A stretch of 64,000 nucleotides of DNA from an uncultured Bacteroidales bacterium (GTDB lineage Bacteria > Bacteroidota > Bacteroidia > Bacteroidales > Paludibacteraceae): positions 41,803 through 105,802 of the forward strand of contig CACZVM010000007.1 of assembly GCA_902784585.1 (NCBI GenBank), written 5' to 3'. A model generated the notes under the pieces. The model was not told where the DNA came from, did not search any database, and saw only the letters and a program-made list of their open reading frames with translations. Both the position numbers and the translations under genes were made by a program. Positions 10,855 to 56,937 of this stretch are shown here, one piece after another; positions within the stretch are counted from its first letter, which is position 1; each line of letters starts with the position of its first letter.

Positions 10855-10876
10855 CCAATTACCAATAACCATTACC
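10844..10876. repeat. Stuttered repeat tract, core ACCAATTACC / ACCAATAACC
   Basis: Degenerate tandem copies of a 10-11 nt unit fill the folP-cdaA border and supply the folP stop codon. The same core returns at 30213-30317. Confidence 0.8.
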
Positions 10877-18532: not shown

Positions 18533-18985
18533 TTAACCCGCTATTCTGCGCTTATAGCCGATAAAAAGCAATGCGAAGAGCAGCAGTATCAGAGGTTCAC
18601 CCACCGGTGCCGGATCAGGTATGACACCGGTCGGATTATCGTCCGGATCATCCCACGAGTCTCCGTCGTTCGAAGAACCCGGCTCCCAAGAGTCAGTCCG
18701 TCTTGGTTTTGAACCGCCGGGAGCAGCGCAGTACGGCGTATTATAGGTAGTCGCATCGAACATCGAATGACCCACCATCGAATAGCCTACTAAGGAATGG
18801 CAGGTAGAGGTGGATTGGAACTGATAGATGGGCGCGACCACCTTGTGATAGAACGGTTGGTACCTCGAATTCGTGCTCGTTCGGACAGGCGTAGCACAGA
18901 CAGAGGACCCCAAACCTCCGCAAAGCAGCATCAACAGGGCACAAAGCCAAATATGTTTATTCATTCGTCTCTCCATAACCATCAT
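18533..18985 (-). CDS. Small secreted protein with PxxPxG-TM-Arg C-terminus
   Basis: 150 aa from ATG 18985; ATGs at 18976 and 18964 are alternatives. Layout: signal peptide (LCALLMLLCGGLGSSVCA), a Ser/Thr/Tyr-rich stretch, an acidic Asp/Pro/Gly-rich stretch (DGDSWDDPDDNPTG), then PDPAPVGEP, one hydrophobic helix LILLLFALLFIG, and YKRRIAG at the end. Motif, helix and basic end is the layout of sortase/exosortase-type sorting signals; no such enzyme is visible here. ATG 18985 overlaps the TGA of the giant upstream gene (ATGA), which points to translational coupling. A second protein with the same layout is at 40567-40935, also right after a giant gene. Function unknown. Confidence 0.75.
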   Translation of the reverse strand: MMVMERRMNKHIWLCALLMLLCGGLGSSVCATPVRTSTNSRYQPFYHKVVAPIYQFQSTSTCHSLVGYSMVGHSMFDATTYNTPYCAAPGGSKPRRTDSWEPGSSNDGDSWDDPDDNPTGVIPDPAPVGEPLILLLFALLFIGYKRRIAG

Positions 18986-21900: not shown

Positions 21901-24900
21901 GTCCAGGTTCTCGTACAGATAGCCCTTGTTGAAGAACGTACCGGTTTTGGTTTTCTGGTAGTTCGCGAATGTCGTATCAAACCGTGTGACGAAATCAGAC
22001 AGGTTGATGAAGATAGAGTCTTCATCGGTCGGCACGTAGTTGTGCGCCGGCATCGGGATATATCCGAAGATCGTATCCGGTGTCGCCGGCTTGTCATCTA
22101 TTGCAGGTTTGCCCGGGCGATTTGCCTCATGCAGATAGCCGTCTATCATCGGCACAAAGGAGATAGCGCCGGCCTTGGTCGTTTGCTGAATGGTATAATA
22201 GACGTTGCTACCGTTGTAGGTCAGGGTATCAATGAAGCCCTGATAATCAACACGAAGTACAACGTGGATGATAGAGTCGTTCTTGATGTCATCCACACAC
22301 TTGGTGTTGGCCTGATAGGCAATCAACGGCGGCTTGGTGGCAAAGACGCACATGTCGTCGATGATGAAGTCGTTGCCGTTGAAGTCCGACGCCATATTAT
22401 ATATACGCACACGGAAATGGTCGTAGGCGCCTTCCTGCTTGATGGGGAAGTATATCTGACTCCACTGGTTGGACGGCTTGATATCGCCGGTCATATAGGT
22501 GGTGATGTCGTCCCATGACGTGCCGTTCGTGGAACCTTGTACCGATATGGTGAAGTTCGGGTTGGCCTTACCGCTTTGGTTGCTCGGGTTGCCTACGTAG
22601 GCGGAGAAATACATCTTCTGTCCTTCGCAAAGTTTCGTTTCCAGCGAAAGGGCTGCCACCTGTCCGGCGGAGTTCATTCCGTCGCAGTAGATCATATAGC
22701 CGTTCTCAGCACCGCCGTGTTGCTCCATCTTATGCCAGTAGTTGGAGTACGGGATGCGATTGATCAGTCCGTACTCACCCACACCCGGGAAATTCGGCGC
22801 AAAGTCGTTGTGGTAACGGTTGTCCGGAATGTCTGGACGTACGGGATAGCTGTAGCCGTACGAACCGTCTCCCCACGGCAGCGGGTGCGGATAGACTTGG
22901 TAGTCCTTGCCCGGCTTGATATAGTCGAAGTTCAGACGCTCCAGTATCTCGTAGTTCTGCTCAATCTCATCATCCGTGATGAGTGCTTTGGCCACACCAC
23001 CCTTGGTGCTCTCCTGCTGCGGACCGAACTTACGCGGATTATGATACATAACCTTGTAGCGGCAGATATTGAACCAGTAAGCACCTTCGTCATTGGTTAC
23101 ATCCGGGTCTCCCACTGTTCCGGCACCCGTGGTTGCCTTACTGCGTGAACGCAGACAGTAATAGACAGTATCGTTCGCGTCACCGGACAGACTGGTCTTG
23201 GCAGGCACATTCAGGAAATCGTCATCTACCGTAATCGGGTGGTTACAAGGTGTGTAGATCTTAGTCGAAGGATTGTAGGTGAACCACAAGCAGTCCGCAT
23301 CCCATCCGCCGCACCAGATCATCGTATCCTGACGACTCACACCATCTTCATCGAGCGTTGTACTCATAGAAGACCAGTTGTCATCACGCATGTAGTAGCC
23401 TAACAAGGATTCGGAGTGTCCTTTCTTGGTCAGGTTGTCGTAGATATAGCGCTGTTCGGTACGGAGCAGCAGACGGTTACCAATAGGCGCCATCACCTCA
23501 TGGTCCTCCATGTACGTCTCGTCTTTCAATTCGTAAGGACCTTCTCCTTCGTCGCCGACACTAAGGGATTTATAATTCTCCATGCGTTCTGCCATCTCGG
23601 TCCACGGATGCAGTTCAAATACCTCGCGGAGCGACAAAGTCGGCTCGATGATGTTTTTCATCGTATCCAGCACCGCCGTATCTACCTGGTTGATATATTT
23701 CATGGACAGCGGCAGGTTGTCGTAGTAGGCACCCAGGTCCACCACATACGTAATCGTCTTTTTGTCGTGAGGCGGCATTACCTGAGGCGACTTGGCCGGC
23801 GGGTCATTCTTGCTGGCATATTGTACAGCCGGATAGTGGAACACCGTATAACGGCCCATCGTCACGAGTTTTTTGCCACCCTTTCCGTCATCTACAGAGT
23901 CACCGATGATACGGAACGGGTAGTTGAATTTACCTACGTTTCGCGGCGGAGTGATCCATAGTGAGTCGAGGATATCCATGTCGCTGCAGTCGAAGCCGTT
24001 CTCGTCCTCTCCTTCGCGGTACCAACGCCACCAGCCGTAGAAACCGCGCTCACGAACAGGCAGTTCAACAGCCTGGTTTTCCTTGCCGTAGTTGCCGGGG
24101 TTGTAATAATAGAGAATACGTTTGTTCTCATGTACCTGCTGACGGCCATCCGGCATCAAGGGATCACCCGACGCGCCCGGACTGTGTACCAGTGTCTGGT
24201 TGTTGGCATATTGGAAGAAGCTCGGCTGCGATATGGTCAACTTGAAGTTGGCATACCGATAGTCAGGTGTCAAGGTTTTAGATACATCGACAATGTATGC
24301 AAAATAGAGGGTGGCTGAACGCGGCGAACGAATACCGTTTTTCAGACATTTCATCGTGAGCGTACTATCCCCTATGTTGCTGATCTTGCACCAGTCCGGT
24401 GTCTTACCGTATTCGTCCACCAGACGGATTTCCGCGAGGGCGGGATTCCCCAGATGCATCTTCTTGGTCAGCGTATCGCTCGCGGAGGCGACATACTTTA
24501 CAACGTGACCATCCGCATCGAATGTGTTCGTTCCGTGACGATAGAAGGTTCCCAGGTAGAACGTGTGGGTGGAGTCGGCTCCAACGCCGGTAGGTAAGGT
24601 AGCAGGGAAGGTGTAGTTGTATTCTTCTCCTTCCGGCACGCAGACGAGCGAGTCGTAGCGTGCCTCGTGGTAGGTCTTGCGGATCAACGGAATCTTGAGG
24701 CAAGCGTCGCTAAGCGAACTGAACGAACTCCAGTCGCCCTTGAAGCGGTAATCCACTGTCGCGCCGCCCTGCAGACCCACTGTCACTTGCAGCGTATCGA
24801 CGATATTGGCGTACTTGCCGTCAATGGTTACACCCACGTGCAAACCGTCAACGGTCCCACCCATCGGACTGTCGCCCGAAGGCGTGATGGTGGAGGTGAA

Positions 24901-27900
24901 ATTCGTGGTCGTCCTGTTCAAACCGCTCAGCGGCTCCGGTGAGCCATCAAAGTCTCGTCTATCACGTATCGTATCTACCGTGTACGTGAGTTGCCATATT
25001 TTTTCCGGATTTGTCAAGTTAGCCAGACTTGATTCGTCTTCACGGCAGACATAGACCTTCTTATTGTCCAACAGCATCGAGTATTCGTGGTAGGCTTTGA
25101 ATGCCGTCTGGACTGTTACCGGCGATGTACTGTTATAACCGAACTCCACGCTCTCATGGTTCGGGTACGTACCGTTGTTCTGGATGTTGAATTCATCCAG
25201 AAGATAACTCCAGGAGAACATGGAAGCTTCCGACTCCGTTTCCGTCAGGACAAGCCTCGGCACAGCCGGATCACCGCTCACTTCAAATTTCAACCATTTA
25301 CCCGTACCGTATTTCAGTATTACCTGTTCCTCGTAGTTGGCATTGTCGTTGGTATAGGAGCGAACCAACTCAAACGTCAGGGTAGATGGACTTGCCGGAT
25401 CACCTACTCCGGGAGTAGTCTCGCCGGCAATGGCGAAGGATTTGTTTACGTCGTATTCCGTATGCAACGTGATGCTGGTGCCTGTAAATGAATATGCCCA
25501 CGGGGTGATATATTCCTCTTTACTGTTGGCGGCATCGTACGAACCCTTGATCAGTTTGGTCTTGACGTCGTTATGTTTGTAAAGCGTAAGACTGCTTTGG
25601 GTGTACTGGCGGAAAATCAGTCCGCCCGAACCCGCCGTGATGAAGTAGCGCTTGCCGCCGTTCACCACCGACCATATCAGCTCAGTGCCGGAAAGGGCAG
25701 CTTGCATCAGTGGCACGCGTGCCGGCACTTCCGTACCGCCCACATTCACGGTGATATTCAGCGTGTCGCGGTCGGCCTTATCCGTGTTCTGCGCTTGGGT
25801 GGTCAGCGCAACACTGGTGGCTGTCTTCGTGCCGATGGCAAAATACGTGCTTCCACCTGTCAACGTACAGCTCGCGCCTGTCAGATTGAGCACAGTCGTC
25901 GTGTCCTTGGTGGAGATGATGTCCTCGCGGACAACGTGATCCTCGGCATCCAGCAACTCACGGTAGGTCTGCTTCTCCAGCGTGAAGTTCAGCGTCTGCG
26001 ACTGTCCCGCCAACGGACTGAAGTTATAGCTCTCCTGCTCCGGTTTCAGCACCAGTCGCGTCTGCGAAGCGCCGTAGTGATAAGTCTTGGTCTTTACCAG
26101 TATGTCGCGGTAGCGCGAACCGTCCGCTCTCAGCTTCAGTCCGTCATCTGCGCTTTTTTTCTTCCAACGGCCGTAGTAGTCCTTCACCTTGCTCAGGGGT
26201 GCCGGACGAAGCCAGACGCGTAGCGTATCTACGATGTCCTGAGTCGGTCCGATAGGACTGGATGCGCCGCTGTAGATGTTGCAGCAGAAGCCGTTCTCCG
26301 TTTCCTCCATGATGACGCTGTCTCCAGTAGCTATCAGGCCCGCTGCACGGGTGTCATAGATATATTGGAACGTATGCGTCATACGATAGTCTTGCGACAG
26401 ACGCAGCTCATTGGCATTCGCAATGGTCTTGTCAGGGTTCGGGTGGAAATAGATGGTATCATTGCCCACCTTCATTTGCGCCATCAGTTGCTTACCGATC
26501 AGTTTCGACCATACCTGCTTCATCGAAGATTCGGTATGGTAGTCGAACGTGATCTCGTCCATCCAGGGCGTGGTGGCATCCGTCGTGTCCGGCAGGATGA
26601 CGTAATGGGCATCCACGACACCCACACCGGAAATCATAAAGTCGGTTCCATCGCCTGACACACCGTCGAACTGATCGGTTGTCGGCATATATTTGACATT
26701 GGGCTTGTCGCTATTACCGCGCTCCTCCTTTTCAATCACTCCTGCTACTGTGTGCAGGTAGTGCGTAGAGGTGATGCGGGTATCCTCCACACACGAGGCT
26801 GCGGGCGTCGGCCAACCTTTGGTTGAGGTAAACAGACCCGCCCAGGTATTGTTGGCAATGATGGTATTCGGGTCGGTGTAGTACAAACCTAAATACTCAT
26901 CGCCGTTCGGCTGATAGTCCTGGTAGAAAACAAGCGAGTCGACAGCGCCTTTTTGCGTTTCATGCTTCGGGTCCAGCACATATTCGTTGGCTTCGCACTC
27001 TGCACATATACCTTCTTTACCTATAATCTTGTACGATGTCAGGTAATTGGGGTCGGAGTTGTTGGCGTCGCCTATACCCTGGCGCACGTTGGTCCAGTCG
27101 TTGTAATAACGGGCACGGGCATAACGAGGCGCACCACCCGGATGCGTCAGGAAGTATCGCTTGCCATCCTCTTTCAGGAACGAAATGGCGACGTTGATGC
27201 TACCTTTATATCTTGCTTGCGCATAGAGTACTAATTCACCGGACAAAGTCACCGATTCGCCAACGTTGAATTTTGTAAACGCACCGACTATAGTATCCGG
27301 CACATTGGTCCAGCAAATAAACTCATAATCGCCCAACAGACGGGGCGCTTGTACCGTCACGGTGGATTCATCCTTAACAGCGTGCTGGTCCGGAATCTGC
27401 GTACCAAAGTGGCCGTTGTTGTTGTAATGGATGTATTTGTCGGCCTCTGCCTCTATGAACACCATACCGCCGTTCTTCTTAGGGTTGGTAGCATCAATTT
27501 GTGCCCAACCGGACTTGCCGGTGCAGGGCGTTTCCGTATTTTTTACCAAGACGGAAGTACCTTCTATCATCTCGCTCCAACCTGCGATGTCCGCACCCGG
27601 GTCGGTCTCGCTGTACTCCGGACCTGTCTGCAAGGTGGCTTTGATTGTGAGTTTGGACCAATCGTCTGTAATGGTCCACATTTCTTCGGTGGTCCATATG
27701 GTGCCGTCCTCGTTCGGAATCATCTTCACGTTCGTTCCCGTGCTGACTTTCAGGAAATAACCCGCCGGTTCGAACGCCACGCCTAAGTTGTCTTCGCTCG
27801 AGGTCTCGTCAATCGCCATAAAGCCGTATGCATCCTTTGAAGGAACGTACGCCTTCGGTTGATCTTTCAATGCCCGGATACGCAGCGAATCGATGGGGGT

Positions 27901-29052
27901 GAATACCGAAGCGGATTTAGGGGAACCGGAACCTAAGTCCTTAGCGCTATGATAGGCGTTGTTATAACCTACATAGTAGTAGGTACTATCCCGACCCGGC
28001 ACTTTCATGCCTCTGGTCTGATAATATGGATCCCCTTCTCTCACCAGCTCCATACAATCGTAGTGATCCAGCGTGTATATCTTGCGCCAGGAAGAGAACG
28101 TACTCATGTTATCCGCACTACGATAGCGTACGTAGTCCTGCGTGTCCCATCCGAAGAAATACGAAGGGCAGGAATGGAACTCTTTCTCGCCCAGCACGTA
28201 CAGACGGAAGAGTGTACGCGGAGTCGGTTTGTGCTTGCTATCCGCAAACGCATAGCCGGATGCACCCGGAGTGAGGGTAAAGTCGCCATTGGCGCACTTC
28301 ACGTTGCTAAGCGTCGTGTTGAAGGTTACCAACGACCCGTTCACATAAGCGTTCGGGGCGTTGAAACGCGGGATGTCGAACATATACACCTCGCGGTAGG
28401 TCATGCCGGCAAAGCCGGTGCCCATTTTACCGTCAAACGCCCAGGTCGGGTGTCCCGCACTGCCGTCACCGCGGTGATACGTTTCATCCAAATCCAGCGT
28501 TCCGTTCGGGTCCATGTTTTCCGTGGCACGCACGGTCGGCACAACGAACACCACGTCGCAGAGGTATTGGCTGGTCTTGTTGTTCGACAGGCAGCCCAGA
28601 AACTTGAACGCACTGGTGGAACTCGGTGTACCCGACATCAGGGTATAACCGCTCGAACTCCACATGGTATAACTGATGCCGCCCAAAGCGTAATCCACTT
28701 TGTTTTTGACACGCGTCAATGCAGTATCTATCGTCCAAACAGAAGCCTCAGACGGCACGGTCGCACCCGCATCTTGCGGAATAAGGCGCAACTCATGAGC
28801 CGCTTTGTATTTGAATCTACCACCGGTATAACTCGGATAATGGCTCACGAAATACTCTTCGCCAGCATCTTCTGTCCCATTGCCGTTCACATCTATCCAT
28901 ACTGACAGCAGGAACCGATCGCCCGGTTGAAAATCAACCACCAAACCGGCATCGGTAGGGGTCCAACCCACACCTAAAACGCGGCTAGGAATGAATAACA
29001 AAAAAACGAAAAACGGAAGCAAGTGCCTCCACAGACTAATTTTCTTCTCCAT
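18982..29052 (-). CDS. Giant secreted surface protein, 3356 aa
   Basis: Start ATG 29052 (MEKKISLWRHLLPFFVFLLF); signal peptide about 27 residues ending SRVLG. The mature chain is long, beta-rich, Thr/Ser/Asp/Gly-rich and poor in recognisable enzymatic motifs. Visible pieces: repeated Ig/BACON-like stretches with aromatic-Tyr patterns; near the C-terminus a WAPQSAEDNRWNNPNNW motif common in Bacteroidota surface proteins, then NKWALRSAPVTGMISGDLFM, then a beta domain (about the last 200 residues). The end is a 27-residue tail, ARKLIRDGHV...IMRNGHVYTMFGQIWR, that matches the out-of-frame tail after 40423. I infer export through T9SS or a related route. The stop overlaps the start of the small tripartite gene. 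Promoter at 29074-29106, leader about 15 nt. Confidence 0.9.
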   Translation of the reverse strand: MEKKISLWRHLLPFFVFLLFIPSRVLGVGWTPTDAGLVVDFQPGDRFLLSVWIDVNGNGTEDAGEEYFVSHYPSYTGGRFKYKAAHELRLIPQDAGATVPSEASVWTIDTALTRVKNKVDYALGGISYTMWSSSGYTLMSGTPSSTSAFKFLGCLSNNKTSQYLCDVVFVVPTVRATENMDPNGTLDLDETYHRGDGSAGHPTWAFDGKMGTGFAGMTYREVYMFDIPRFNAPNAYVNGSLVTFNTTLSNVKCANGDFTLTPGASGYAFADSKHKPTPRTLFRLYVLGEKEFHSCPSYFFGWDTQDYVRYRSADNMSTFSSWRKIYTLDHYDCMELVREGDPYYQTRGMKVPGRDSTYYYVGYNNAYHSAKDLGSGSPKSASVFTPIDSLRIRALKDQPKAYVPSKDAYGFMAIDETSSEDNLGVAFEPAGYFLKVSTGTNVKMIPNEDGTIWTTEEMWTITDDWSKLTIKATLQTGPEYSETDPGADIAGWSEMIEGTSVLVKNTETPCTGKSGWAQIDATNPKKNGGMVFIEAEADKYIHYNNNGHFGTQIPDQHAVKDESTVTVQAPRLLGDYEFICWTNVPDTIVGAFTKFNVGESVTLSGELVLYAQARYKGSINVAISFLKEDGKRYFLTHPGGAPRYARARYYNDWTNVRQGIGDANNSDPNYLTSYKIIGKEGICAECEANEYVLDPKHETQKGAVDSLVFYQDYQPNGDEYLGLYYTDPNTIIANNTWAGLFTSTKGWPTPAASCVEDTRITSTHYLHTVAGVIEKEERGNSDKPNVKYMPTTDQFDGVSGDGTDFMISGVGVVDAHYVILPDTTDATTPWMDEITFDYHTESSMKQVWSKLIGKQLMAQMKVGNDTIYFHPNPDKTIANANELRLSQDYRMTHTFQYIYDTRAAGLIATGDSVIMEETENGFCCNIYSGASSPIGPTQDIVDTLRVWLRPAPLSKVKDYYGRWKKKSADDGLKLRADGSRYRDILVKTKTYHYGASQTRLVLKPEQESYNFSPLAGQSQTLNFTLEKQTYRELLDAEDHVVREDIISTKDTTTVLNLTGASCTLTGGSTYFAIGTKTATSVALTTQAQNTDKADRDTLNITVNVGGTEVPARVPLMQAALSGTELIWSVVNGGKRYFITAGSGGLIFRQYTQSSLTLYKHNDVKTKLIKGSYDAANSKEEYITPWAYSFTGTSITLHTEYDVNKSFAIAGETTPGVGDPASPSTLTFELVRSYTNDNANYEEQVILKYGTGKWLKFEVSGDPAVPRLVLTETESEASMFSWSYLLDEFNIQNNGTYPNHESVEFGYNSTSPVTVQTAFKAYHEYSMLLDNKKVYVCREDESSLANLTNPEKIWQLTYTVDTIRDRRDFDGSPEPLSGLNRTTTNFTSTITPSGDSPMGGTVDGLHVGVTIDGKYANIVDTLQVTVGLQGGATVDYRFKGDWSSFSSLSDACLKIPLIRKTYHEARYDSLVCVPEGEEYNYTFPATLPTGVGADSTHTFYLGTFYRHGTNTFDADGHVVKYVASASDTLTKKMHLGNPALAEIRLVDEYGKTPDWCKISNIGDSTLTMKCLKNGIRSPRSATLYFAYIVDVSKTLTPDYRYANFKLTISQPSFFQYANNQTLVHSPGASGDPLMPDGRQQVHENKRILYYYNPGNYGKENQAVELPVRERGFYGWWRWYREGEDENGFDCSDMDILDSLWITPPRNVGKFNYPFRIIGDSVDDGKGGKKLVTMGRYTVFHYPAVQYASKNDPPAKSPQVMPPHDKKTITYVVDLGAYYDNLPLSMKYINQVDTAVLDTMKNIIEPTLSLREVFELHPWTEMAERMENYKSLSVGDEGEGPYELKDETYMEDHEVMAPIGNRLLLRTEQRYIYDNLTKKGHSESLLGYYMRDDNWSSMSTTLDEDGVSRQDTMIWCGGWDADCLWFTYNPSTKIYTPCNHPITVDDDFLNVPAKTSLSGDANDTVYYCLRSRSKATTGAGTVGDPDVTNDEGAYWFNICRYKVMYHNPRKFGPQQESTKGGVAKALITDDEIEQNYEILERLNFDYIKPGKDYQVYPHPLPWGDGSYGYSYPVRPDIPDNRYHNDFAPNFPGVGEYGLINRIPYSNYWHKMEQHGGAENGYMIYCDGMNSAGQVAALSLETKLCEGQKMYFSAYVGNPSNQSGKANPNFTISVQGSTNGTSWDDITTYMTGDIKPSNQWSQIYFPIKQEGAYDHFRVRIYNMASDFNGNDFIIDDMCVFATKPPLIAYQANTKCVDDIKNDSIIHVVLRVDYQGFIDTLTYNGSNVYYTIQQTTKAGAISFVPMIDGYLHEANRPGKPAIDDKPATPDTIFGYIPMPAHNYVPTDEDSIFINLSDFVTRFDTTFANYQKTKTGTFFNKGYLYENLDGVVRPVLYVIHNAKMTADNTYTVRLSAADEGLMSDKCAMTSNLNVTNRMILMLDNEEKEDPKVTNLCANATYDLSVRVKGSLFLDSIAPLDVNGSCTNDWLLYGDTSDVSSLERYGYKYSDIKKVIKDILRCEAASDQNRFARSLTEVNHNNMLLTQKSEKVSINGTHEPEPGSHYDPYVILSHLVNNGFLMLYQSQITASVAKNDSLQYVIFPILGTGSEDIYKNHMEVCPTPMVIKLKSTLGGGVPLIVGGIQRDSTEMNMPIKVLVNERTANGEFSLYIDSIMPSAALHSITLLSTDDPDYYEGVHRLNLEPDRVYNFGGDNSGYYLKGHNIVLHPSPSNNYQMRQGYHYTFGILMQGLTGSLEGADGCPIGTIPFTLGLVPDYLRWAPQSAEDNRWNNPNNWIGVDVNNDTIPNIGRFAPLPTTDIIISAVGDGMPYPNLPDPSSISSKDSVKHVGFAYNICDDIRFLPGAAISQQQRLSYDVAVVDMTLPYNKWALRSAPVTGMISGDLFMANADLSGETKMWSVGEFDASGRSHTTGNASFYPSVFDRTIVKVGNGSNVENDTLSESDWSKVTNALTLSLPPAQGWAVYTRTAANNDAVVRLPKSDDRYYYYYASGDRADELYEDNLRAMRTTLSPDTTAGKLAFYPGEATQQTYTITKANANTTFVFGNPTMGYIDIWGFIADNDLELEFRYIDATGLWRVVNKATADATRDTITTLARYLPPMHAMVVNAKSSVSEKTLRLNTSRVVTVAPTPPVLPAPRRVNASGRSKGIMTVTATNAASQRCTTRLLLGQGYDNAIRKGEDAVLTTVNISKYSATSYPATPFNIYAVENGYGLSIDLLDSVVNVPISFYMSKLSFAPTTQLWFTGVNAIDGELVLYDAQTQSERTIIDGICLEIETPANSHEVRYYIRRSGYVPENTNPILTGFDPAEEQEAASDARKLIRDGHVLIMRNGHVYTMFGQIWR

Positions 29053-29073
29053 TACCAATCTTCAAAAAATCGC

Positions 29074-30212: not shown

Positions 30213-30317
30213 TATTACCAATCACCAATTACCTGACGGTGTCCCCGTCAAACGGGGAAACCCTAGACGGAAGGGGCACCAATCACCAATTACCAATTAC
30301 CAATTACCAATTACCAA
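30213..30317. repeat. Stuttered repeat tract, core CACCAATTACC, split by a hairpin element
   Basis: Copies of CCAATCACCAATTACC-like units on both sides of a 48-nt insert at 30233-30280. The insert contains CCCCGT-caa-ACGGGG at 30243-30257 inside a wider GGTG...CACC pairing. It fills the whole smpB/CNNM-CBS gap. The core is shared with 10844-10876. Confidence 0.8.
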
Positions 30318-31376
30318 TCACTCCTCTTTCGGAGCGATTTTCTTGTATTTCTTCTGCCTCTGTTCCCAGCGCTCACGGGCATATTGCTGCATGTCTATCA
30401 CGGTGTCGTTCTCGTCGATTATCTCCAGTCCGAAGATCGTCTCGATGATATCCTCCAGCGTCAGGATGCCGACGAACATCCCGTACTCGTCTATTATCTG
30501 CGCTATCTGGCTCTTCTGCTTGAGCATGCTGTCGAAGATGGTACCCAGCGTCAGGTCCTGGTCGAATGCCGGCAGCGGACGCTTGATGCCGCCCAGTGTC
30601 TTGCGGAAATGGTCTTCCGTCAGCTCTTCCAGCGCATCGTTACGCAGCACATAGCCGGTGATGTATTCGGGTGCTTCGGGTTTATAGAGCGGGATACGCG
30701 AGAAATGGTCATATTCATCGTTGTCGTAATATGCTCTGAGCGTCATGTTCTCCGGCGCTATCTTCGCCACCACACGAGGCGTCATCACGTCGTACGCATG
30801 TATCGAATCCAGACGCATCAGGTTCGAGAATATCTTGTTCTCATCCTCGTCCACCACGCCTTCTTCTTCGCCTACGTTCACCATCGACAGCACTTCTTCG
30901 CGACTCACCGAAGGCTCGTCTTCGTTGTCCGGGAAAGCACGTGTGATCAGCTCCACAAGCATCACAAACGGATATAATATAATGATTAGCGCGCGTATCG
31001 TGCGGGCGGTGAAGCCCATCAGCGCACGCCAGTAGGTCGTGCCGATTACTTTCGGTATTATCTCGCCGAAGATCAGTATCAGCAGCGTTACGATGGCTGA
31101 AACCAGGCCGAACCACTTACTGCCGAACACCTCTGTCGCCTGCATGCCTACGCCGGCGGCACCGATGGTGTTGGCGATGGTGTTGAGCGAGAGGATAGCC
31201 GCCAGCGGACGACCCGTGTCGTCTTTGTATTGCGCCATCAGCTTCGCAGGACCGTAGCCCTCTTCCTCACGCAGGTTGATATAACTGAGCGACGTGGTCA
31301 TCAGCACCGATTCCAGCACGGAGCATAGAAAACTGACGGCCATCGCACCGAATAAAAATACGAATAAAAGTCCCAT
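30318..31376 (-). CDS. CNNM/CBS-domain membrane protein (hemolysin-C / CorC family)
   Basis: 352 aa from ATG 31376 (MGLLFVFLFGAMAVSFLC). An upstream extension would lie in the promoter. N-terminal CNNM (DUF21) domain with about four membrane segments (residues 1-170: LREEEGYGPAKLMAQY, ILSLNTIANTIGAAGVG, IFGEIIPKVIGTTYW), then a CBS pair (about 200-330: IHAYDVMTPRVVA, SRIPLYKPEAPEYITGYVLRNDAL, IAQIIDEYGMFVGILTLEDIIETIFGLEI). The chain ends in a basic tail without the usual CorC_HlyC domain, so it is short for the family. Likely role: divalent-cation (Mg) efflux or transport at the inner membrane, by family analogy. Confidence 0.9.
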   Translation of the reverse strand: MGLLFVFLFGAMAVSFLCSVLESVLMTTSLSYINLREEEGYGPAKLMAQYKDDTGRPLAAILSLNTIANTIGAAGVGMQATEVFGSKWFGLVSAIVTLLILIFGEIIPKVIGTTYWRALMGFTARTIRALIIILYPFVMLVELITRAFPDNEDEPSVSREEVLSMVNVGEEEGVVDEDENKIFSNLMRLDSIHAYDVMTPRVVAKIAPENMTLRAYYDNDEYDHFSRIPLYKPEAPEYITGYVLRNDALEELTEDHFRKTLGGIKRPLPAFDQDLTLGTIFDSMLKQKSQIAQIIDEYGMFVGILTLEDIIETIFGLEIIDENDTVIDMQQYARERWEQRQKKYKKIAPKEE

Positions 31377-32323: not shown

Positions 32324-35300
32324 ATGAAAAACTTTTTAAACTTAAATCAACTCTCGATGAGTTGGAATGAAAAACAAAAGCCGCAGCGGGCAATCCGGTA
32401 TGCGGCAATGCTAATCATGCTCCTCACCCTCGGAGTGGGACAGATGTGGGCAGGAAAAGGATTTTGGGGGTCAGGACAGTGGAATGTCAAATATTATGAT
32501 GGATCAGGCAGTGACAAATGGATTGGAGAAGGTAATGATGGTGCCACTAAAGACTTAGGTATTAAAACAACTCTTTACCTAAAAGGGAGTTGGGTTAAAA
32601 CTTGGTCTGACGGTGGCTGGACACAATCATCAGTGGTATGGAATTATGGATTATCATCTTCATATGGAAACACGAAAACCGCGACAAAGTCTTCCGTTCA
32701 AGGAAACCAAACATGGGATTTTTCTGTGGATTATAACGTTATAGCCAACGCGCCAAATAATCCAGGACAAAATACCATATATATGTATTGGCGATTAGAT
32801 GATTATGTATCTTCAACTGCTAGTTATATAAATTTCACAATCCCCGGATTTAAAAAAACAAGCGTAAGCCAAGATTTTGGTAATGTAACTGTCAGCAGTA
32901 CAAAAGATCTAACTATTTCGTTTACACAGCACTATGGAACGGCCTTGACGACAAGTAATTGCGCTCTTTCCGGTACTAATAGCTCGGAATTCGAAGTACG
33001 GAGTATTAGTGAGACAGGAGTTACCGTACGGTTTAAGCCGTCAAGTAACGGAAGTAAATCTGCAACCCTTACCATTACAGATGCACATAGCAAGACATGT
33101 ACCATTACGTTGAGTGGTAAGACACAACGTGCCGTTACATACAAAAAGGGAGATAATGGTACTGGTAGTGATATAACCGATTATAAAGTTTATAACACTA
33201 ATTTAACTTTGAGAAGTAGTGGTTTTACTCGTACCGGTTACAATCTAACAGCTTGGAACACTAGTTCAAACGGAACGAGTGGAACATCTTATGCTCTTGG
33301 GGCGACATATTCTTCAAATAACGCATTAACGCTTTATCCTACGTGGACAGCAAAGACTACTACCATTACTTTGAATAATCAAGGTGCAACTACTGCGGGA
33401 ACTACAAGTGTAACAGCCACTTACGACCAAGAGATGCCGGAAATCATAATTCCGACAAAGACCGGATATACGTTCGGTGGATATTGGGGTGCTCCTGGTG
33501 GAAGTGGTCCACAATATTACAATGCCGATGGTTCCAGTGCTCATAATTGGAACGATGAAGCATCCACTATTACTCTTTATGCCAAATGGACGGAGAACAT
33601 GTCCTCTGTTTCGTTGGTTGCTTCGCCGACGGGGAAGGGTTCGTTCACTATTGGCGGCGCAGCAGCGACAAGCACTACTGCAGGCGTAGCTACGACTCGT
33701 TCGGTGACGGCAGTTCCTATTTCCGGATACCACTTTGTAAGTTGGTCTATCACCGGTGGTGCCACTATAAGCGGTTCGACGGACAACCCCGTAACCGTAA
33801 CAGGTGATGGCACAGGAACAGCAGCCACGCTGACAGCCACCTTCGCTGCAGATGCCGCAAGTTACACAATCACATACGGCGCCGGAAATTCACCTTATAA
33901 TAACGGTACGGTTTCGGAAGGTCACTCCTATGCCAGTGGTTCTTCCCAGACAGCCGGAACCCAGATTTCGTTAACCGCTACACCTACTAACGCACACTAT
34001 AAATTAGCAGGTTGGTATAGCGAAGCAGCGTGCTCTTCGGCTATTGCCGGTGCCGGTACTACTAATCCATACGAGTTTACGTTAGGTGCTAACACTTCCG
34101 TTTATGCGAAGTTCATCCTGAAGCAATGTACGATTACTCTTAACAAGAACGGTGGTTCAACCGGTGCTGCGTCTGTTACAGCTTCGCATGGCTCTACACT
34201 TCCTTCCTTCACGGCGCATTCCCGTACAGGTTACACGCTGGACGGCTACTATACAGATCCCAGTACAGGAACGAAAATCATTGATGCCAGCGGTGCATTG
34301 GTAGCTTCCACAACATATGCCAACGCCAGCAAACAATGGAATAACGATGCTACTTCTTTGACCTTGTATGCCCACTGGACGGCAAAAACCTATGACATCA
34401 CTTATGTAGATGCCAATAACGTAGCTACTATCGCAACCAATCCTTCTACCGGAAGTACGGATGCTACTATTAACTTCACCGTTACAATGAAACCGGGCTT
34501 CAAGAGTTTGAGTGTAACGGCGGTTGATGCAGGTAGTAACACCGTGACGGTAACCAATCCGAGTTCCAATAATTATCGTTTCACCATGCCGGCAAGCGCT
34601 GTGACGGTAACAGTAACCGCAACTGCTCTGCCTGTAGTGTATGTCTTGAAGACGAAACATGCAAATTCCTCTTTGGGAGATGATGCAACCGGACTTCCGT
34701 CAACGGCTACAATATGGGCATGGACATTTTCAGGCAGTAAGAACTTCTATACTACTCCGGGCAGTTTCCCAGGCCCTTCGGCCTCTTCAAAAGCGACTGC
34801 TATTACCGATGACATCATCGGCGATGAGTGGTATCGTTTCATTCCGGATAATACCAGTTATTTTGATGGTAGCACGGCATATCATGTGATTTTGACAAGT
34901 ACAAACCGAATCCTGGATACTGAAACCACATTTATTGAGAACGGTTCTTCACATTCGGCTGCTACGCATACGGGAACGATTTGGATTGTGCCGCATGGAA
35001 CAGATGCGAACACGGCTTATTTATATACATCGTATCCGGATGAGATTGTTACTCCATATAACACCACATATTATGCAGGTGACCACGGTAGCATCAATGT
35101 CTTCGGAACAACTATAACAAGTGGTAATTCTCAAACCATAGCCACCACGAAGAACCGTACATTAACGGCTACTCCGGCAAGCGGCTATGCATTCAACCGA
35201 TGGATCACCACAGGTAGCGTAACGGTAGCGGATGCCACCAGCGCTACTACTACTGTTTCTGCTACAGGAGCAGGCGGTACGGTAACAGCTACGTATTTTG

Positions 35301-38300
35301 AGACAGTTAACAGCGGATGGTATATCAAGGGAAATCCTGCCGGTAATGATTGGGGCACTCCGACCACTCTTCCTTTGAATAGAGTTCTTCCGGGAGAGAC
35401 TAATGTATATTACCGCCCGGTTACACTCCCGGCTAATGATCAATACTTCCGATTCTGGCATGTTGAAACAGGGAATCCACAATATGGTGCGTCTACCGGC
35501 AATCTCGCTGTTTTAAAAGATACGAAATATGACATATCAAAAGAAATTGGCAAAGATGGTAATTCCTTCAAGTACAGTGCCGGTGGTACGGTTTGGTTCG
35601 TGGTTGACGCAAGTGGTGCTACCAAGAAATTCTGGCTGCAAGATCCGGTAGAGTTCTACTCTGTCAACTTCGGTTATAGCGACGGTTGTAAGACATTCTC
35701 TGCAAAAGACGGAGAAGGTAACGACCTTGTTTCCGGCAATACCTATGTATCCGGAACAGAACTCACCTTTACCCAGACCAAGAAAGAAGGCTACACCTTC
35801 GTAGGCTGGAATACAGCGGCTGATGGCAGCGGCAGTTCTTTGGGAACAGGTTCGTCCTATACCGTTGCCAGCCTTTCCGCGGATGTCAACGTATATGCGA
35901 TTTATACAGAGAACAAGACGGCTATTACTATTAATACTGACGGACACGGAACGATTACGACTCCGAGCCCGAACAGTAGTCCGTACAGTTTAGGTGTTGC
36001 CACCACGCAAGCTATCAATGCAACTGCAAATGAGGGTTACCACTGGAATACATGGACTACAAGCGGAAATGCGGCATTAGGAACGACGGCTACGACGGCA
36101 AGCAACACCGCCAAAGGTAATGGTGCGGAAGGCGGTACAGGTACTGTAACCGCCACCTTTACCCCGAACACATATACAGTACGATTCCATCGTAATGGTG
36201 GTGCAGGGGATGTTGTTGAGCAGAACTTCACCTATGGTGTAGCGCAGAACCTGACAGCGAATACTTACACCAAGACGGGTTATAACTTCGCGGGTTGGGC
36301 ACTAGCGGCTGATGCTGCGGTAACTTATGCGGATGAGGCAAATGTTTCTAACCTTACCTCGACAAATAGTGGCACATTCCATTTGTATGCAAAATGGACG
36401 CCAAAGACCACAACTATCACGTATAGCCAGAGTGGTACAGGATACGGCAGCGGTGGTCAGTCAACGACCCAAACAGCGACTTACGATGCTGCAATGCCGA
36501 CTCCGATAACAACTCCGACGGCTGCTAACGGATATGCGTTCATGGGTTACTATGATGCCCTTGAGCCGCTTGGTAATAAATATTATAATGCAGATGGTAC
36601 GAGTGCACGCACTTGGAATAAAGAAGATGCAACAGCAACACTCTACGCTTACTTCAAGAAAGCGGAGATTACAGAGTTGGTATTTGATGCAGAAACAGTC
36701 GAACCGGAGAGCACCGTAGGCGTAACGCCGACGATTAGTCCGACACCGGTAGGAACGACCATCATCTGCTGGACGATTCTGCATAGTAATGACACTCCGC
36801 TGGATCCGCAACCGGCGATGACATGGAGCGATGGCAAACTAACCTTTGCTGCTTCTACATACAGCGGAACGTATAAGGTACAGGCTGTTTTGCGCACGGG
36901 TAATGATTGCAGCGGTGGTACATCATTGGATACTGAGACTGCCAGCTTCTTGGTAGCAGGTAGCCACACCGTAACCGTCAACTACAAGTGCGGCGATGAT
37001 GTCATTAAAACAGCAACCAGTGTTACCGGACGTCCGACAGATTGGTCTGATGATATTACCGCTCCGGACATCTTCGGTTATACGTTTGTTCGTTGGGATG
37101 CTGAAGATGGTGTAACCATCAAGAACGGAGACTCCGATCCTGTAACCACCACTACGAACGCTACTATTCAAATCGAAGCAACCTATGCCGGTAAACTGAC
37201 TGCGGTATATACACAAAAGAGCATGATCTATTTCAAGAACACCTTGGGATGGAGCGATGTATATGTGAACTTCTATACCGGTAGTTATTGGAACAATCCT
37301 AAGGGTTCGGGTAATAATGGCGTAACGAACCAGAACTTGGCGATGACTCAGTATGGAGAAACCGACATCTGGTACTACGATTACGGCGCAGCAAGTATTA
37401 CGCCGAGTTTGTATGTATCTTTTACCAGCAAATCGCAAAGCAATTCCGAGAACTTCTGGCATACAGATGGTGTAGATGTTGTTTACCCCGCGAACTATGC
37501 GGATAACATACATTCGGATAGAGCTGCAGAGAATGGCTTCAAGGCAGCAACGCCTATGTTTGTGCCGTTGGCTGCTCAAGACTACGTATTGCTGAATGGA
37601 AAGGCGCATTACTATAACGCCGGTTATTGGTCACGATACACACCGGGTACGGGTTACAGACTTGAGATTTATAACGAGGCTGGTAATTCAATGATCAAAT
37701 ATAAAGATTTTGAATCAGCAGATGACTTGATGCCGATGAAGGCAGTTCTAGATTTGGAAGGCGGACAGACCTATAAATTCCAAATCAGACGTGGTGGAGA
37801 AAGTAGTGCCGGTATCTACTACGGTAATAGCGGAACAATGGACTATACAAATCACGGTCAGGATGTTGCATGGGATTTGACTAATTATCCGAGTATGTCT
37901 AAGGCTGGCATCACAACGAACGCTGCCGGTGACTACACCTTCAATTTGAGTTATTCGGCTTATCATAACAAATCAACCGGTAAGGATGAATACCGTCTTC
38001 GTATAGCCGTTGATTATCCGGTAGCGAGCGGTGACTACCGATTGGTATATAGCGATGCTGTACAGACAAAACCGTTAACTTCGGCGATCGTAAACAAGGT
38101 GAATGATGGTACGGATATCGTTTCGTTCTTCGTTCGCCCGGGTTCAACACCGGTACTGCGTATCCAACAGGCAACAGTCAATCCGTCAACCGGTGCAATC
38201 ACTTGGAATGAGTATCCGAATTCCGGTACACCGACGAACCAGATTACCGGCACGATCGCAAGTACCATATCTTCGAGCGGAACAGAGGTTTACAACTTCA

Positions 38301-40423
38301 ATCTTTCGATGAACGGTAGCGGTGCGTTGACTGTAGCAAGTGCAGAAGTATACGACGGTAACTTCTACATTCGCACCGATGCTGCTAACAGCAAGTGGGA
38401 TAACTACCGCACCGATCCGGATCACTTGATGACCTATTCGGAGTATTCCATTGACCACGGCGGTTACACGCACTATTACACGCACTGGGTAAATAAGGAC
38501 GATGCAGGTCGCAAGAACGTGAAGTTCGTTATTGCCAACGACTATAGCCCGAATATCTCGGATACGCTGGCACGTGAGGCCGCTTCCGGCACATGGGCAA
38601 ATATCGCATCCTTCATGGAAGAAGGCGGTGACCTGAAGCGTAGCGCGAACGTGCGCTTTATGTGGGACAAGCGCGACAACACCATCAGCCGTGCATATGT
38701 CGATGGCGCGCAAGGAGACTACTCCACCAACTTCCTGTACATGCTGAATGTTGAGGACGGAGCAGACAAGATCAGGAAAAGTGATGAAAGTGCCCTGACA
38801 GACCATAAGGTGACGTTCAAAGATAACGGTAACTGGATGTATGAGGCAAATATCCAGGCACAGCCGGAAGCAGCCATCAAGCTTCTCTCCAACTGGGGTA
38901 CATCGAATACGATCACGCAGTACTTCCGCGGCGCTTCGGATGCTACAGAGACGCTCCTTGGCGGTAGCGGTTCGACCTGGTATGACATCCGTGTCATCTA
39001 TGACTTCAAGACCAACCGTCTGATAGCAGGTTTGATACCAAGCGGAAATATTTCAGATCCGATGGCTATTCACGCCGATGTGATGTTCATCCGTGAGCAT
39101 CAAGGCGATATTGCGCAGGTAACATTCACAGAAGATGGTGCTATCACTGATATCGAGACCGCTTACGGCGTACTCCAATTCAACAAGTGGACGATTAACA
39201 ACAAGTCTAAAGCAGATGGACACGCTCCGTTAAGTCCGCTATTGTCAGCATATGAGCGCGATCTGTTCTACATATCGTTCCCGTTCCGCGTCTCGATGGA
39301 AGAAGTATTTGGATTCGGTACGTATGGTCAGCACTGGATTATTGAAGAATACGACGGTGCTAGCCGTGCTGCTAATGGTTACTGGGCAGAGTCCGGTCCG
39401 AACTGGAAGTTCGTCTTTAACCGCAAGAACAAGTTCTTCGAGCCGGGTACCGGTTACATCATCGCGCTGGATCTGGATGAGATGGGTGAGAGTGCTGATA
39501 TTTGGGCGAACACTGACCGGGTAGAGCTCTACTTCCCGTCTTACGGCAAAATGGATAACATTACCAGCTCGACCGCAACATATGATATTCCTGCGCATTT
39601 ATGTACGATAGACCGAAGCAATGAACCCAAGCCCGGAGGAGGTACACTTGGCGATGCTTATGACCGCCGCGTCAAGGATAGTCACTGGAATGTATTGGGT
39701 GTTCCGACCTACGTCAATCCGGATGCGCCGAACTACGCAAATACCGCTTGGACAGCGTCAGCTACCGAAACAAGTATCGGTCCGAACTTCCTCTATCAGT
39801 GGAACATGGACGACAATTCCGTATCGGCTGTTTCAGCAAGCGGCTATACGTATCACGCAATGCACGCGTACCTTGTACAATACTGCGGCAACGTTACCTG
39901 GACTTCCAGCGTCAGCGTAAAACCGTCACCTATCGTGGCACGCGAACGCACTGCTCCGAAGAACGTTGAGTTCAAAGTGGAACTGATGCAGAATGAGAAG
40001 GCAGTTGACCAGACCTTCGTGAAGTTGAGCGACAATGAGAACGTAACGACCGGCTTTGAGTTCAACTACGATATGTCGAAAGAGTTCAACAAGAACAAAG
40101 CGAACATCTACACGATGATTACATCGAACATCGACGGCGATCTCTCCATCACAGAAGCAGCCGGTAATACGTTGCCGATGAGCGACCAAACAACGATCGT
40201 GCCGGTAGGTGTGGATATCAAGACCAATGGCGACTACACCTTTGCTATACCTGACGGTACAAGCGGAGTGGGCGTTACGCTCATCGATACGGAGAATAAT
40301 ATCCGTACGAGCCTCAGCGCACTGAGCTACACCGTCAACCTGACCGCAGGCACCCACGACGGACGCTTCTTGCTCGAGATCGCACCGATCCAGCAGACAC
40401 CGACGGGAAGAGGTTACGGGTGA
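32324..40423 (+). CDS. Giant InlB-repeat secreted protein, 2699 aa, C-terminal tail frameshifted
   Basis: Signal peptide in the first ~43 residues (YAAMLIMLLTLGVGQMWA). An ASPM/SPD-2/Hydin-like Ig domain follows (about 175-265), then Listeria-Bacteroides (InlB B) repeats and divergent relatives: about 270-425, 425-510, 513-597, 599-688, 914-990, 1110-1200, 1200-1285, 1285-1363 and 1363-1447, recognisable by GYTFGGYW, GYNFAGWA and TLYAKWT-type ends. Several Ig-like or unknown beta domains follow, with ISFPFRVSMEEVFGF and WNVLGVPTYVNP segments near the C-terminus. The frame stops at TGA 40421-40423, inside a repeat tract. The next frame carries on to 40526 and encodes the tail also found on the 3356-aa protein. 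Likely a surface protein. The first 900 nt are more AT-rich than the rest. Confidence 0.9.
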   Translation: MKNFLNLNQLSMSWNEKQKPQRAIRYAAMLIMLLTLGVGQMWAGKGFWGSGQWNVKYYDGSGSDKWIGEGNDGATKDLGIKTTLYLKGSWVKTWSDGGWTQSSVVWNYGLSSSYGNTKTATKSSVQGNQTWDFSVDYNVIANAPNNPGQNTIYMYWRLDDYVSSTASYINFTIPGFKKTSVSQDFGNVTVSSTKDLTISFTQHYGTALTTSNCALSGTNSSEFEVRSISETGVTVRFKPSSNGSKSATLTITDAHSKTCTITLSGKTQRAVTYKKGDNGTGSDITDYKVYNTNLTLRSSGFTRTGYNLTAWNTSSNGTSGTSYALGATYSSNNALTLYPTWTAKTTTITLNNQGATTAGTTSVTATYDQEMPEIIIPTKTGYTFGGYWGAPGGSGPQYYNADGSSAHNWNDEASTITLYAKWTENMSSVSLVASPTGKGSFTIGGAAATSTTAGVATTRSVTAVPISGYHFVSWSITGGATISGSTDNPVTVTGDGTGTAATLTATFAADAASYTITYGAGNSPYNNGTVSEGHSYASGSSQTAGTQISLTATPTNAHYKLAGWYSEAACSSAIAGAGTTNPYEFTLGANTSVYAKFILKQCTITLNKNGGSTGAASVTASHGSTLPSFTAHSRTGYTLDGYYTDPSTGTKIIDASGALVASTTYANASKQWNNDATSLTLYAHWTAKTYDITYVDANNVATIATNPSTGSTDATINFTVTMKPGFKSLSVTAVDAGSNTVTVTNPSSNNYRFTMPASAVTVTVTATALPVVYVLKTKHANSSLGDDATGLPSTATIWAWTFSGSKNFYTTPGSFPGPSASSKATAITDDIIGDEWYRFIPDNTSYFDGSTAYHVILTSTNRILDTETTFIENGSSHSAATHTGTIWIVPHGTDANTAYLYTSYPDEIVTPYNTTYYAGDHGSINVFGTTITSGNSQTIATTKNRTLTATPASGYAFNRWITTGSVTVADATSATTTVSATGAGGTVTATYFETVNSGWYIKGNPAGNDWGTPTTLPLNRVLPGETNVYYRPVTLPANDQYFRFWHVETGNPQYGASTGNLAVLKDTKYDISKEIGKDGNSFKYSAGGTVWFVVDASGATKKFWLQDPVEFYSVNFGYSDGCKTFSAKDGEGNDLVSGNTYVSGTELTFTQTKKEGYTFVGWNTAADGSGSSLGTGSSYTVASLSADVNVYAIYTENKTAITINTDGHGTITTPSPNSSPYSLGVATTQAINATANEGYHWNTWTTSGNAALGTTATTASNTAKGNGAEGGTGTVTATFTPNTYTVRFHRNGGAGDVVEQNFTYGVAQNLTANTYTKTGYNFAGWALAADAAVTYADEANVSNLTSTNSGTFHLYAKWTPKTTTITYSQSGTGYGSGGQSTTQTATYDAAMPTPITTPTAANGYAFMGYYDALEPLGNKYYNADGTSARTWNKEDATATLYAYFKKAEITELVFDAETVEPESTVGVTPTISPTPVGTTIICWTILHSNDTPLDPQPAMTWSDGKLTFAASTYSGTYKVQAVLRTGNDCSGGTSLDTETASFLVAGSHTVTVNYKCGDDVIKTATSVTGRPTDWSDDITAPDIFGYTFVRWDAEDGVTIKNGDSDPVTTTTNATIQIEATYAGKLTAVYTQKSMIYFKNTLGWSDVYVNFYTGSYWNNPKGSGNNGVTNQNLAMTQYGETDIWYYDYGAASITPSLYVSFTSKSQSNSENFWHTDGVDVVYPANYADNIHSDRAAENGFKAATPMFVPLAAQDYVLLNGKAHYYNAGYWSRYTPGTGYRLEIYNEAGNSMIKYKDFESADDLMPMKAVLDLEGGQTYKFQIRRGGESSAGIYYGNSGTMDYTNHGQDVAWDLTNYPSMSKAGITTNAAGDYTFNLSYSAYHNKSTGKDEYRLRIAVDYPVASGDYRLVYSDAVQTKPLTSAIVNKVNDGTDIVSFFVRPGSTPVLRIQQATVNPSTGAITWNEYPNSGTPTNQITGTIASTISSSGTEVYNFNLSMNGSGALTVASAEVYDGNFYIRTDAANSKWDNYRTDPDHLMTYSEYSIDHGGYTHYYTHWVNKDDAGRKNVKFVIANDYSPNISDTLAREAASGTWANIASFMEEGGDLKRSANVRFMWDKRDNTISRAYVDGAQGDYSTNFLYMLNVEDGADKIRKSDESALTDHKVTFKDNGNWMYEANIQAQPEAAIKLLSNWGTSNTITQYFRGASDATETLLGGSGSTWYDIRVIYDFKTNRLIAGLIPSGNISDPMAIHADVMFIREHQGDIAQVTFTEDGAITDIETAYGVLQFNKWTINNKSKADGHAPLSPLLSAYERDLFYISFPFRVSMEEVFGFGTYGQHWIIEEYDGASRAANGYWAESGPNWKFVFNRKNKFFEPGTGYIIALDLDEMGESADIWANTDRVELYFPSYGKMDNITSSTATYDIPAHLCTIDRSNEPKPGGGTLGDAYDRRVKDSHWNVLGVPTYVNPDAPNYANTAWTASATETSIGPNFLYQWNMDDNSVSAVSASGYTYHAMHAYLVQYCGNVTWTSSVSVKPSPIVARERTAPKNVEFKVELMQNEKAVDQTFVKLSDNENVTTGFEFNYDMSKEFNKNKANIYTMITSNIDGDLSITEAAGNTLPMSDQTTIVPVGVDIKTNGDYTFAIPDGTSGVGVTLIDTENNIRTSLSALSYTVNLTAGTHDGRFLLEIAPIQQTPTGRGYG

Positions 40424-40441
40424 CGGGTTAGAGGTTACGGG
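40411..40441. repeat. Stuttered repeat tract, core AGGTTACGGG, at a frameshift
   Basis: AGGTTACGGG (40411-40420), TGACGGGTTA (40421-40430), G, AGGTTACGGG (40432-40441). It holds the stop codon of the 2699-aa frame; the tail frame resumes right after it. Confidence 0.8.
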
Positions 40442-40442
40442 A

Positions 40443-40526
40443 GCGCGCAAAGTGATCATTGATCAGAAGATGTATATCATCCGCGATGGTAAGATGTATG
40501 ACGCTCGTGGAGCGATGATCAAATAA
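40443..40526 (+). pseudogene. Out-of-frame C-terminal tail of the InlB-repeat protein
   Basis: Codons from 40443 to TAA 40524-40526 spell 27 residues beginning ARKVIIDQKM and ending KMYDARGAMIK. They align residue for residue with the last 27 of the 3356-aa protein (ARKLIRDGHV...): shared Ala-Arg-Lys, Ile, Asp, Arg, Gly, Tyr and Gly at fixed spacing. Removing 10 nt (or any number leaving remainder 1 on division by 3) between the two frames joins it to the main protein. Confidence 0.8.
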
Positions 40527-40566: not shown

Positions 40567-40935
40567 ATGAGAACGAAACTTTATATCATCGCAATATTGA
40601 GCATCGCAGCAGTAGCAATGAACGCACAAACGTTCCAACCCGCTACTATCGACAACAGCGCCATCCAGAGCCAAAAGATCATGCAGACGGGCACTAACTA
40701 TAGTGGTCAGGTCTACGAGCCCTTCAGCAGCGTTACTCCTTCGGAGCAAAGCACTGTTGGAGCCAGCTCTGCTCCTGCAAAAGTGAGTGGACCGAGAAAA
40801 GGCTTCGAATACGGTGGTGATACCCCTCCGGGCCCATCCCCTATCGGCGATGCCCTTCTGCCGCTACTCTTGATGGCTGTCGCTTTTGGCATATACAGCG
40901 CTGCGCGCAGAAAACGCCTCACCGCTAAGCAATAA
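40567..40935 (+). CDS. Small secreted protein with PxxPxG-TM-Arg C-terminus
   Basis: 122 aa. Signal peptide MRTKLYIIAILSIAAVAMNA, a polar Ser/Thr/Gln-rich middle, then GPRKGFEYGGDTPPGPSPIGD, a hydrophobic helix (ALLPLLLMAVAFGIY) and SAARRKRLTAKQ. Same three-part layout as the protein at 18533-18985, with PSPIGDAL matching PAPVGEPL. It starts 40 nt after the end of the giant gene's tail frame, so it is probably in the same transcript, and is followed by a good terminator. Function unknown; a membrane-retained or processed partner of the giant protein is an inference from context. Confidence 0.8.
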   Translation: MRTKLYIIAILSIAAVAMNAQTFQPATIDNSAIQSQKIMQTGTNYSGQVYEPFSSVTPSEQSTVGASSAPAKVSGPRKGFEYGGDTPPGPSPIGDALLPLLLMAVAFGIYSAARRKRLTAKQ

Positions 40936-56905: not shown

Positions 56906-56937
56906 AATTCACAATTTACAATTCACAATTCATAATT
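56906..56937. repeat. Stuttered repeat tract, core AATTCACAATTTAC
   Basis: AATTCACAATTTACAATTC-type copies fill the pgk/DUF3127 gap and run up to the pgk stop. Confidence 0.7.

Follow-up and report, generated by a model that had tools for sequence, protein, structure and literature searches.

Heptanucleotide repeats are known from bacteria: units of the GGGAATC type occur in Xanthomonas and Nostoc (PMC4692102) and TAACTGA units in Beggiatoaceae (PMC4679880). The TAACTGA sets are described as mostly intergenic and are also reported for five Bacteroidetes; one set, in a Bacteroidetes species, falls towards the end of a putative PurC gene. Rickettsia palindromic elements, which are palindromic and about 150 bp long, are found in frame inside unrelated protein genes (PMC10969869). 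Here we describe the 3' end of a giant open reading frame (ORF) in a 64,000-nt stretch of DNA from an uncultured Bacteroidales bacterium of the Paludibacteraceae, referred to below as the window, where a degenerate heptanucleotide array stands between the body of the encoded protein and a C-terminal tail whose codons lie in a different frame. Contig C7, which holds the window, belongs to a draft genome of 1.63 Mb that consists of 21 contigs and is 79 % complete. The homologous loci come from drafts of uncultured Bacteroidales or Paludibacteraceae, with ruminant gut as a frequent sample source.

The arrays at this locus and elsewhere in the genus resemble prokaryotic heptanucleotide repeats in their 7-nt unit, short arrays and many dispersed copies (PMC4692102, PMC4679880), and they share the spacing of G runs with the quadruplex-forming GGGAATC family (PMC4692102). 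Unlike the mostly intergenic TAACTGA sets, arrays of the GGTTACG unit fall inside ORFs at the same rate as random positions, mostly in sense orientation, and one gene segment carries different units in different species. Like the Rickettsia palindromic elements they are short dispersed repeats standing in frame within unrelated protein genes (all eight carriers scanned), but they are tandem heptamers of 19–82 nt; no palindrome of about 150 bp was seen, no separate palindrome search being made, and insertion as a unit is only putative. Like the tetranucleotide contingency loci of Haemophilus (PMC2651432) the tract beside the tail is a coding repeat with a unit that is not a multiple of 3; unlike in those loci, the window array is degenerate, its length is conserved across species and the frame difference lies outside it. 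In a limited literature search neither coding heptanucleotide arrays as a Bacteroidota family nor frame switching of a type IX secretion tail was found among the matches listed, the nearest being PMC4679880.

The tail and the array beside the stop

The giant ORF (32324–40423, + strand) encodes 2699 amino acids with Listeria-Bacteroides (InlB-type) repeats (Pfam PF09479 at E 4.5e-27 and PF18998 at E 3.4e-16) and an N-terminus that appears signal-peptide-like by eye. It ends with TPTGRGYG at an in-frame TGA (40421–40423), just where the preliminary description of this DNA had placed the stop. Behind it, the 27 codons of the tail ARKVIIDQKMYIIRDGKMYDARGAMIK are encoded at 40443–40523 (+ strand; stop codon 40524–40526) in a frame other than that of the giant ORF. 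In the tail frame no stop codon intervenes between a point ahead of the giant's stop and the end of the tail, and the array is read there as VTGDGLEVTG. The preliminary description had also noted that these 27 residues resemble the tail of another giant protein of the window, and this likeness was confirmed with a model of the tails of 82 relatives, from which the genome itself was excluded. When the window was searched in six frames, the model found the tail at E 4.9e-14 (best domain) and, at E up to 1, only one other match, the in-frame tail of a 3358-aa protein (18982–29058, − strand; E 0.0034). The two tails are 37 % identical. The match reflects genuine membership of the tail family and not chance, and in the current assembly the tail is cut off from the giant protein.

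The tail model had 41 matches in the genome (E up to 0.1), 39 of them in open frames of at least 152 aa; the two detached ones are the tail of the window (60 aa open) and a weaker match on contig C14 (26 aa open). A contig search with the window protein alone found no relative, and an alignment-based query found 60 loci. With the C-terminal 399 aa of the giant protein as query, matches were obtained in 71 of 150 genomes, and 92 C-termini (window included) of the 112 places listed were examined, 20 weaker or partial matches being left out. The short tail was in frame in 83 of them, a longer domain stood in its place in five (L097, L100, L101, L103 and L105) and the tail was truncated in one (L076). 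Only the window, a paralogue of the same genome (L047) and L037 were without an in-frame tail, so that an in-frame tail or a longer domain was present in 89 of the 92. In four relatives (L038, L039, L041 and L094) the linker in front of the tail has the same kind of array, read in frame as EVTGDGLQVTG or near it.

The detached tail does not look decayed. It differs from the tail of L039 by six synonymous and six nonsynonymous codon differences, compared with seven and six between L038 and L039. Its nonsynonymous share was 0.674, against 0.644 (sd 0.090) for the in-frame tails, which placed it at rank 32 of 47 in a comparison with the 46 of the 83 in-frame tails that have equal length. No decay was seen over 27 codons, a length that sets only a weak limit on age. 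The break would therefore be recent, or still polymorphic, or an error of the assembly.

The array (40411–40441, + strand) can be written as the heptamers AGGTTAC GGGTGAC GGGTTAG AGGTTAC followed by GGG, and the second unit, GGGTGAC, gives the in-frame TGA. The tract is degenerate: the period given by Tandem Repeats Finder (TRF) is 21, the linker scores higher at lag 21 (11) than at lag 7 (9.0), and in a scan of the window it was too degenerate to be among the seven arrays that passed the lag-7 threshold. Its unit and the clearer copies elsewhere suggest that it is heptameric in nature. In the preliminary description it was taken for a repeat with a 10-nt unit, the removal of which would restore the frame. 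A net shift of 10 nt would join the two frames, and this arithmetic stands; the unit is not 10 nt long. The feature noticed there is real, while its unit and its cause were misread.

Origin of the frame difference

In DNA alignments L039, L041, L025 and L094, all four with the tail in frame, match the window in array length. Of the other two aligned relatives, the linker of L018 is diverged but equally long, and L038 has an array 6 nt shorter than that of the window, yet is in frame. The length difference lies elsewhere: in the stretch from the TPT codons to the array, at the junction 40405–40410 (+ strand), each of the six relatives has 5 nt more than the window. On present evidence the frame was therefore not lost by a change in repeat number, since the array length is equal in four of the six and the 5-nt difference is upstream of the array. 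A 10-nt unit and a switch by repeat number were rejected on the same grounds.

The junction coincides with an abrupt change in similarity to the paralogue L047 (also L177), which lies on contig C8 of the same genome. Upstream of 40157 the two DNAs are about 55 % identical, over 40157–40406 (250 nt, + strand, the last approximately 83 codons of the giant body) they are 96 % identical, and identity drops at the start of the linker, where an exact match of about 100 nt ends. Similarity returns (83 %) in a small gene downstream. Such a sharp change looks like the trace of a recent exchange between the two loci. The paralogue has neither the linker nor the tail. In their place stands an array of GTGTAAT GTATAAA GTGTAAT GTGTAAA (L047 2680–2735), and the TAA that ends the L047 protein comes from this GTGTAAT-type array. 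In genome RUG152 the pattern recurs: the paralogues L161 and L164 have near-identical 3' ends, one of them being 14 nt shorter and having its tail out of frame.

We consider it probable, with moderate confidence, that the tail was detached by a recent break at the junction of this paralogue exchange and that the array, entered out of frame, supplies the stop. The ancestral giant protein would have ended like its relatives, with a heptanucleotide array as the linker and then the 27-residue tail, which probably directed type IX secretion. A minor change in length directly ahead of the array, where the exchanged segment ends, would have shifted the tail out of the frame of the body; this change was presumably caused by the exchange. 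Translation would then enter the array in the phase in which GGGTGAC gives TGA, so that the protein ends with TPTGRGYG and is probably no longer secreted or anchored. Several points weigh against this explanation. The break sits at the end of an exact repeat of about 100 nt and is known from a single draft assembly, and the exchange between the window and L047 may have run in either direction. Linkers and tails were not found to be homogenised within genomes as a rule: in the 28 of 29 pairs with enough matched controls the mean percentiles of within-genome sharing were 0.55 and 0.61, neither of them significant. Six of 28 tails and three of 28 linkers were at or above the 98th percentile, a cut-off that was chosen afterwards.

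It is also possible, though unlikely, that the true sequence is in frame and that the short length results from collapse or misjoining at the repeat shared by the paralogues, that is, from an error of assembly or consensus. Short-read assemblies can fail at the ends of exact repeats of about 100 nt, and here the exact match to contig C8 ends at the break, in a 21-contig draft. Detached tails also occur in other drafts. The open frame was shorter than 70 aa in six of the 150 tail matches listed, of which three lie at contig edges; the others are the window, L302, which has a leucine-rich-repeat-like body, and L303, both of the latter from related genomes and with body and tail in different frames. 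However, a simple swap of the two loci would not be sufficient, as the shared segment has the same reading frame in both bodies and L047 too is without a tail, and the long ORFs nearby are uninterrupted. The preliminary description had named a fixed loss as one option; a frame lost ahead of an intact tail is supported.

Phase variation, in which slippage by one heptamer moves the tail in and out of frame, is improbable. One unit would shift the frame, 7 not being a multiple of 3, and a strong tandem array was present in 20 of the 83 linkers, 13 of them with the best lag at 7 or 14. The array of the window is, however, degenerate and as long as those of in-frame relatives, and the 5-nt difference lies outside it, which also speaks against phase variation by a 10-nt unit. 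In-frame tails predominate across species, a pattern not expected of a frequent on/off switch. Programmed +1 frameshifting at GGG TGA C, which would yield a fraction of tailed protein, is very improbable, for although the tail frame runs open past the giant's stop, the tail is undecayed and an AGAGG stretch a few bases upstream is similar to the release factor 2 stimulator, the site is kept in none of the six aligned relatives, where body, linker and tail are read in one frame.

Repeat arrays in coding sequences of the genus

By itself, the loss of the tail is a minor instance of a gene damaged close to a putative secretion signal, and the repeat family to which the array belongs is the more interesting matter. 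In the linkers of the 83 homologues the share of lag-7 matches was 0.336 compared to 0.255 in body DNA (z 10.7), and lags 10, 14, 15 and 21 were raised as well (z 4.2, 9.0, 7.7 and 7.1, respectively); these values, like that for ArgS below, were obtained against resampled control DNA without allowing for relatedness, and are too high as measures of significance. The strong arrays of 20 of the 83 linkers have many different units, with the best lag at 7 in 11, at 14 in two, at 15 in five and at 9 in two, whereas the same threshold was passed by one of 320 control segments from the bodies.

Within the genus, 27 of 73 genomes (own genome included) have the GGTTACG unit, whereas none of 47 genomes of other genera has it, which gives 27 of 120 overall. 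The richest genome had at least 71 overlapping hits among the matches listed, and the reversed control gave two hits in all. The unit has the properties of a heptanucleotide simple sequence repeat, being tandem, 7 nt long and present in many copies, with the copy in the window itself degenerate. A sample of 112 distinct arrays, which does not comprise all hits and in which orthologous sites (e.g. ArgS, DXS and UvrA) and repeats within one gene were counted separately, was compared with 1120 random nearby positions. The arrays were 19–82 nt long by the search pattern used. ORFs of at least 200 aa contained 84 of the 112 (75 %) and 74 % of the random positions, and an enrichment of arrays in coding DNA was rejected, the two shares being equal. 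Within ORFs 66 arrays were in sense and 18 in antisense orientation, random positions being evenly divided. In contrast to the repeats of the species described before, the GGTTACG arrays were found neither to be mainly intergenic nor to avoid the coding strand (sites not all independent). By a slightly different sorting, 67 internal sense copies used all three phases, at 43:16:8, and VTG[DY]GL was the commonest reading.

Eight carriers of the genome itself were scanned: DXS, UDP-GlcNAc 2-epimerase, an FAD protein, ArgS, QueH, UvrA, a nucleotidyl transferase and LigA. All eight belong to different Pfam families and have their arrays in frame (L205, L215, L217, L218, L224, L227, L229 and L234), DXS with more than one. 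When DXS and ArgS were compared with sequences of solved structures, the arrays lay where the alignment has gaps or conservation is poor. Some of their residues are additional and others take the place of existing ones, and these sites are probably surface loops.

The variable segment of ArgS illustrates how the repeats differ between species. Of 61 genomes searched 48 had a match, and 30 were fetched (L306–L335). Between SVLRK and KEL the DNA is quite different among genomes and is in frame in all 30. Many of the segments are visibly tandem, with units of the GGTTACG type in four genomes and of the CTTCAGC, TCGGTTC, GAGTTGA, ATTACGA or CTCTCGC type in others, which also include 9-mers such as CTAGGCGAC; in some, e.g. 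L314, L322 and L334, no clear repeat is visible by eye. Lag-7 matches reached 0.349 in the segment, while the flanks of these loci gave 0.230 (z 9.8). Lags 8, 9, 14, 16, 18 and 21 were raised too. The repeat site of ArgS is kept and its unit changes between species.

We tentatively propose, at somewhat less than even confidence, that tandem short repeats, foremost heptanucleotides, form a family of the coding sequences of the genus, occupying set positions in core enzymes where variation is tolerated, as well as the linkers in front of secretion tails, in frame and with the unit replaced between species. The out-of-frame tail of the window would be one rare visible failure of this arrangement, the arrays giving secretion tails a spot where the frame can be lost. 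If so, variable protein segments would be continually rewritten with repeat DNA in this genus. In-place repeat turnover in enzymes like ArgS, with frame and rough length kept, would provide protein diversity by a DNA process and not by changes of single codons, and would bear on the reason why 7-nt units are frequent among bacterial repeats.

Periods of 7 were also the commonest in the scan of the window, with seven arrays compared to a mean of 0 over five simulated sequences; lags 12 and 14 had four each. A+T-rich heptamer arrays (ACCAATT, AATTCAC) were seen at 10840–10871, 30277–30318 and 56906–56937. In L046 (genome G034) ACAATTC heptamers stand on both sides of the tail, with the frame kept. 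The linkers of L083, L055, L022 and L028 have translations such as TPTLSQGEGE and SLKGRAQ, which we take to resemble other dispersed repeats, so that linkers may be open to several kinds of repeat.

Tail function and the downstream gene

Because of its position, its number and its replacement by a longer domain in some relatives, we infer that the short tail is a type IX secretion signal. The core protein SprA of the type IX system is encoded in the genome (2621 bits), alongside the many in-frame tails, and two type A domains were found above the cut-off. Type A domains (PF18962/TIGR04183; PMC10202324) are likewise C-terminal on large proteins with signal-peptide-like starts. Unlike those domains, the tail has 27 residues compared to a model of 75 positions, and it had no match in Pfam or NCBIfam, PF18962 and TIGR04183 included. 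The five longer homologous domains occupy the position of the short tail and appear type-A-like by eye. All of their matches were below the cut-off, with PF18962 in two (E 0.016 and 0.055), RodZ_C in one (E 7.1e-5), DUF6383 in one (E 0.1) and nothing in one. The short tail was also considered as a plain fragment of a type A domain, which was rejected, the profile match to the five longer domains being weak and covering 11 columns (probability 45 %).

The small gene downstream of the tail (40567–40935, + strand) encodes 122 aa with a signal-peptide-like start and a C-terminal segment composed of SPIGDA, a hydrophobic stretch and RRK. It had no match in NCBIfam and a single sub-threshold match in Pfam (SpoVAE, E 0.11). 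The C-terminal segment looks like a sorting or membrane anchor, and relatives of the gene were present in dozens of the fetched loci of the giant's family.

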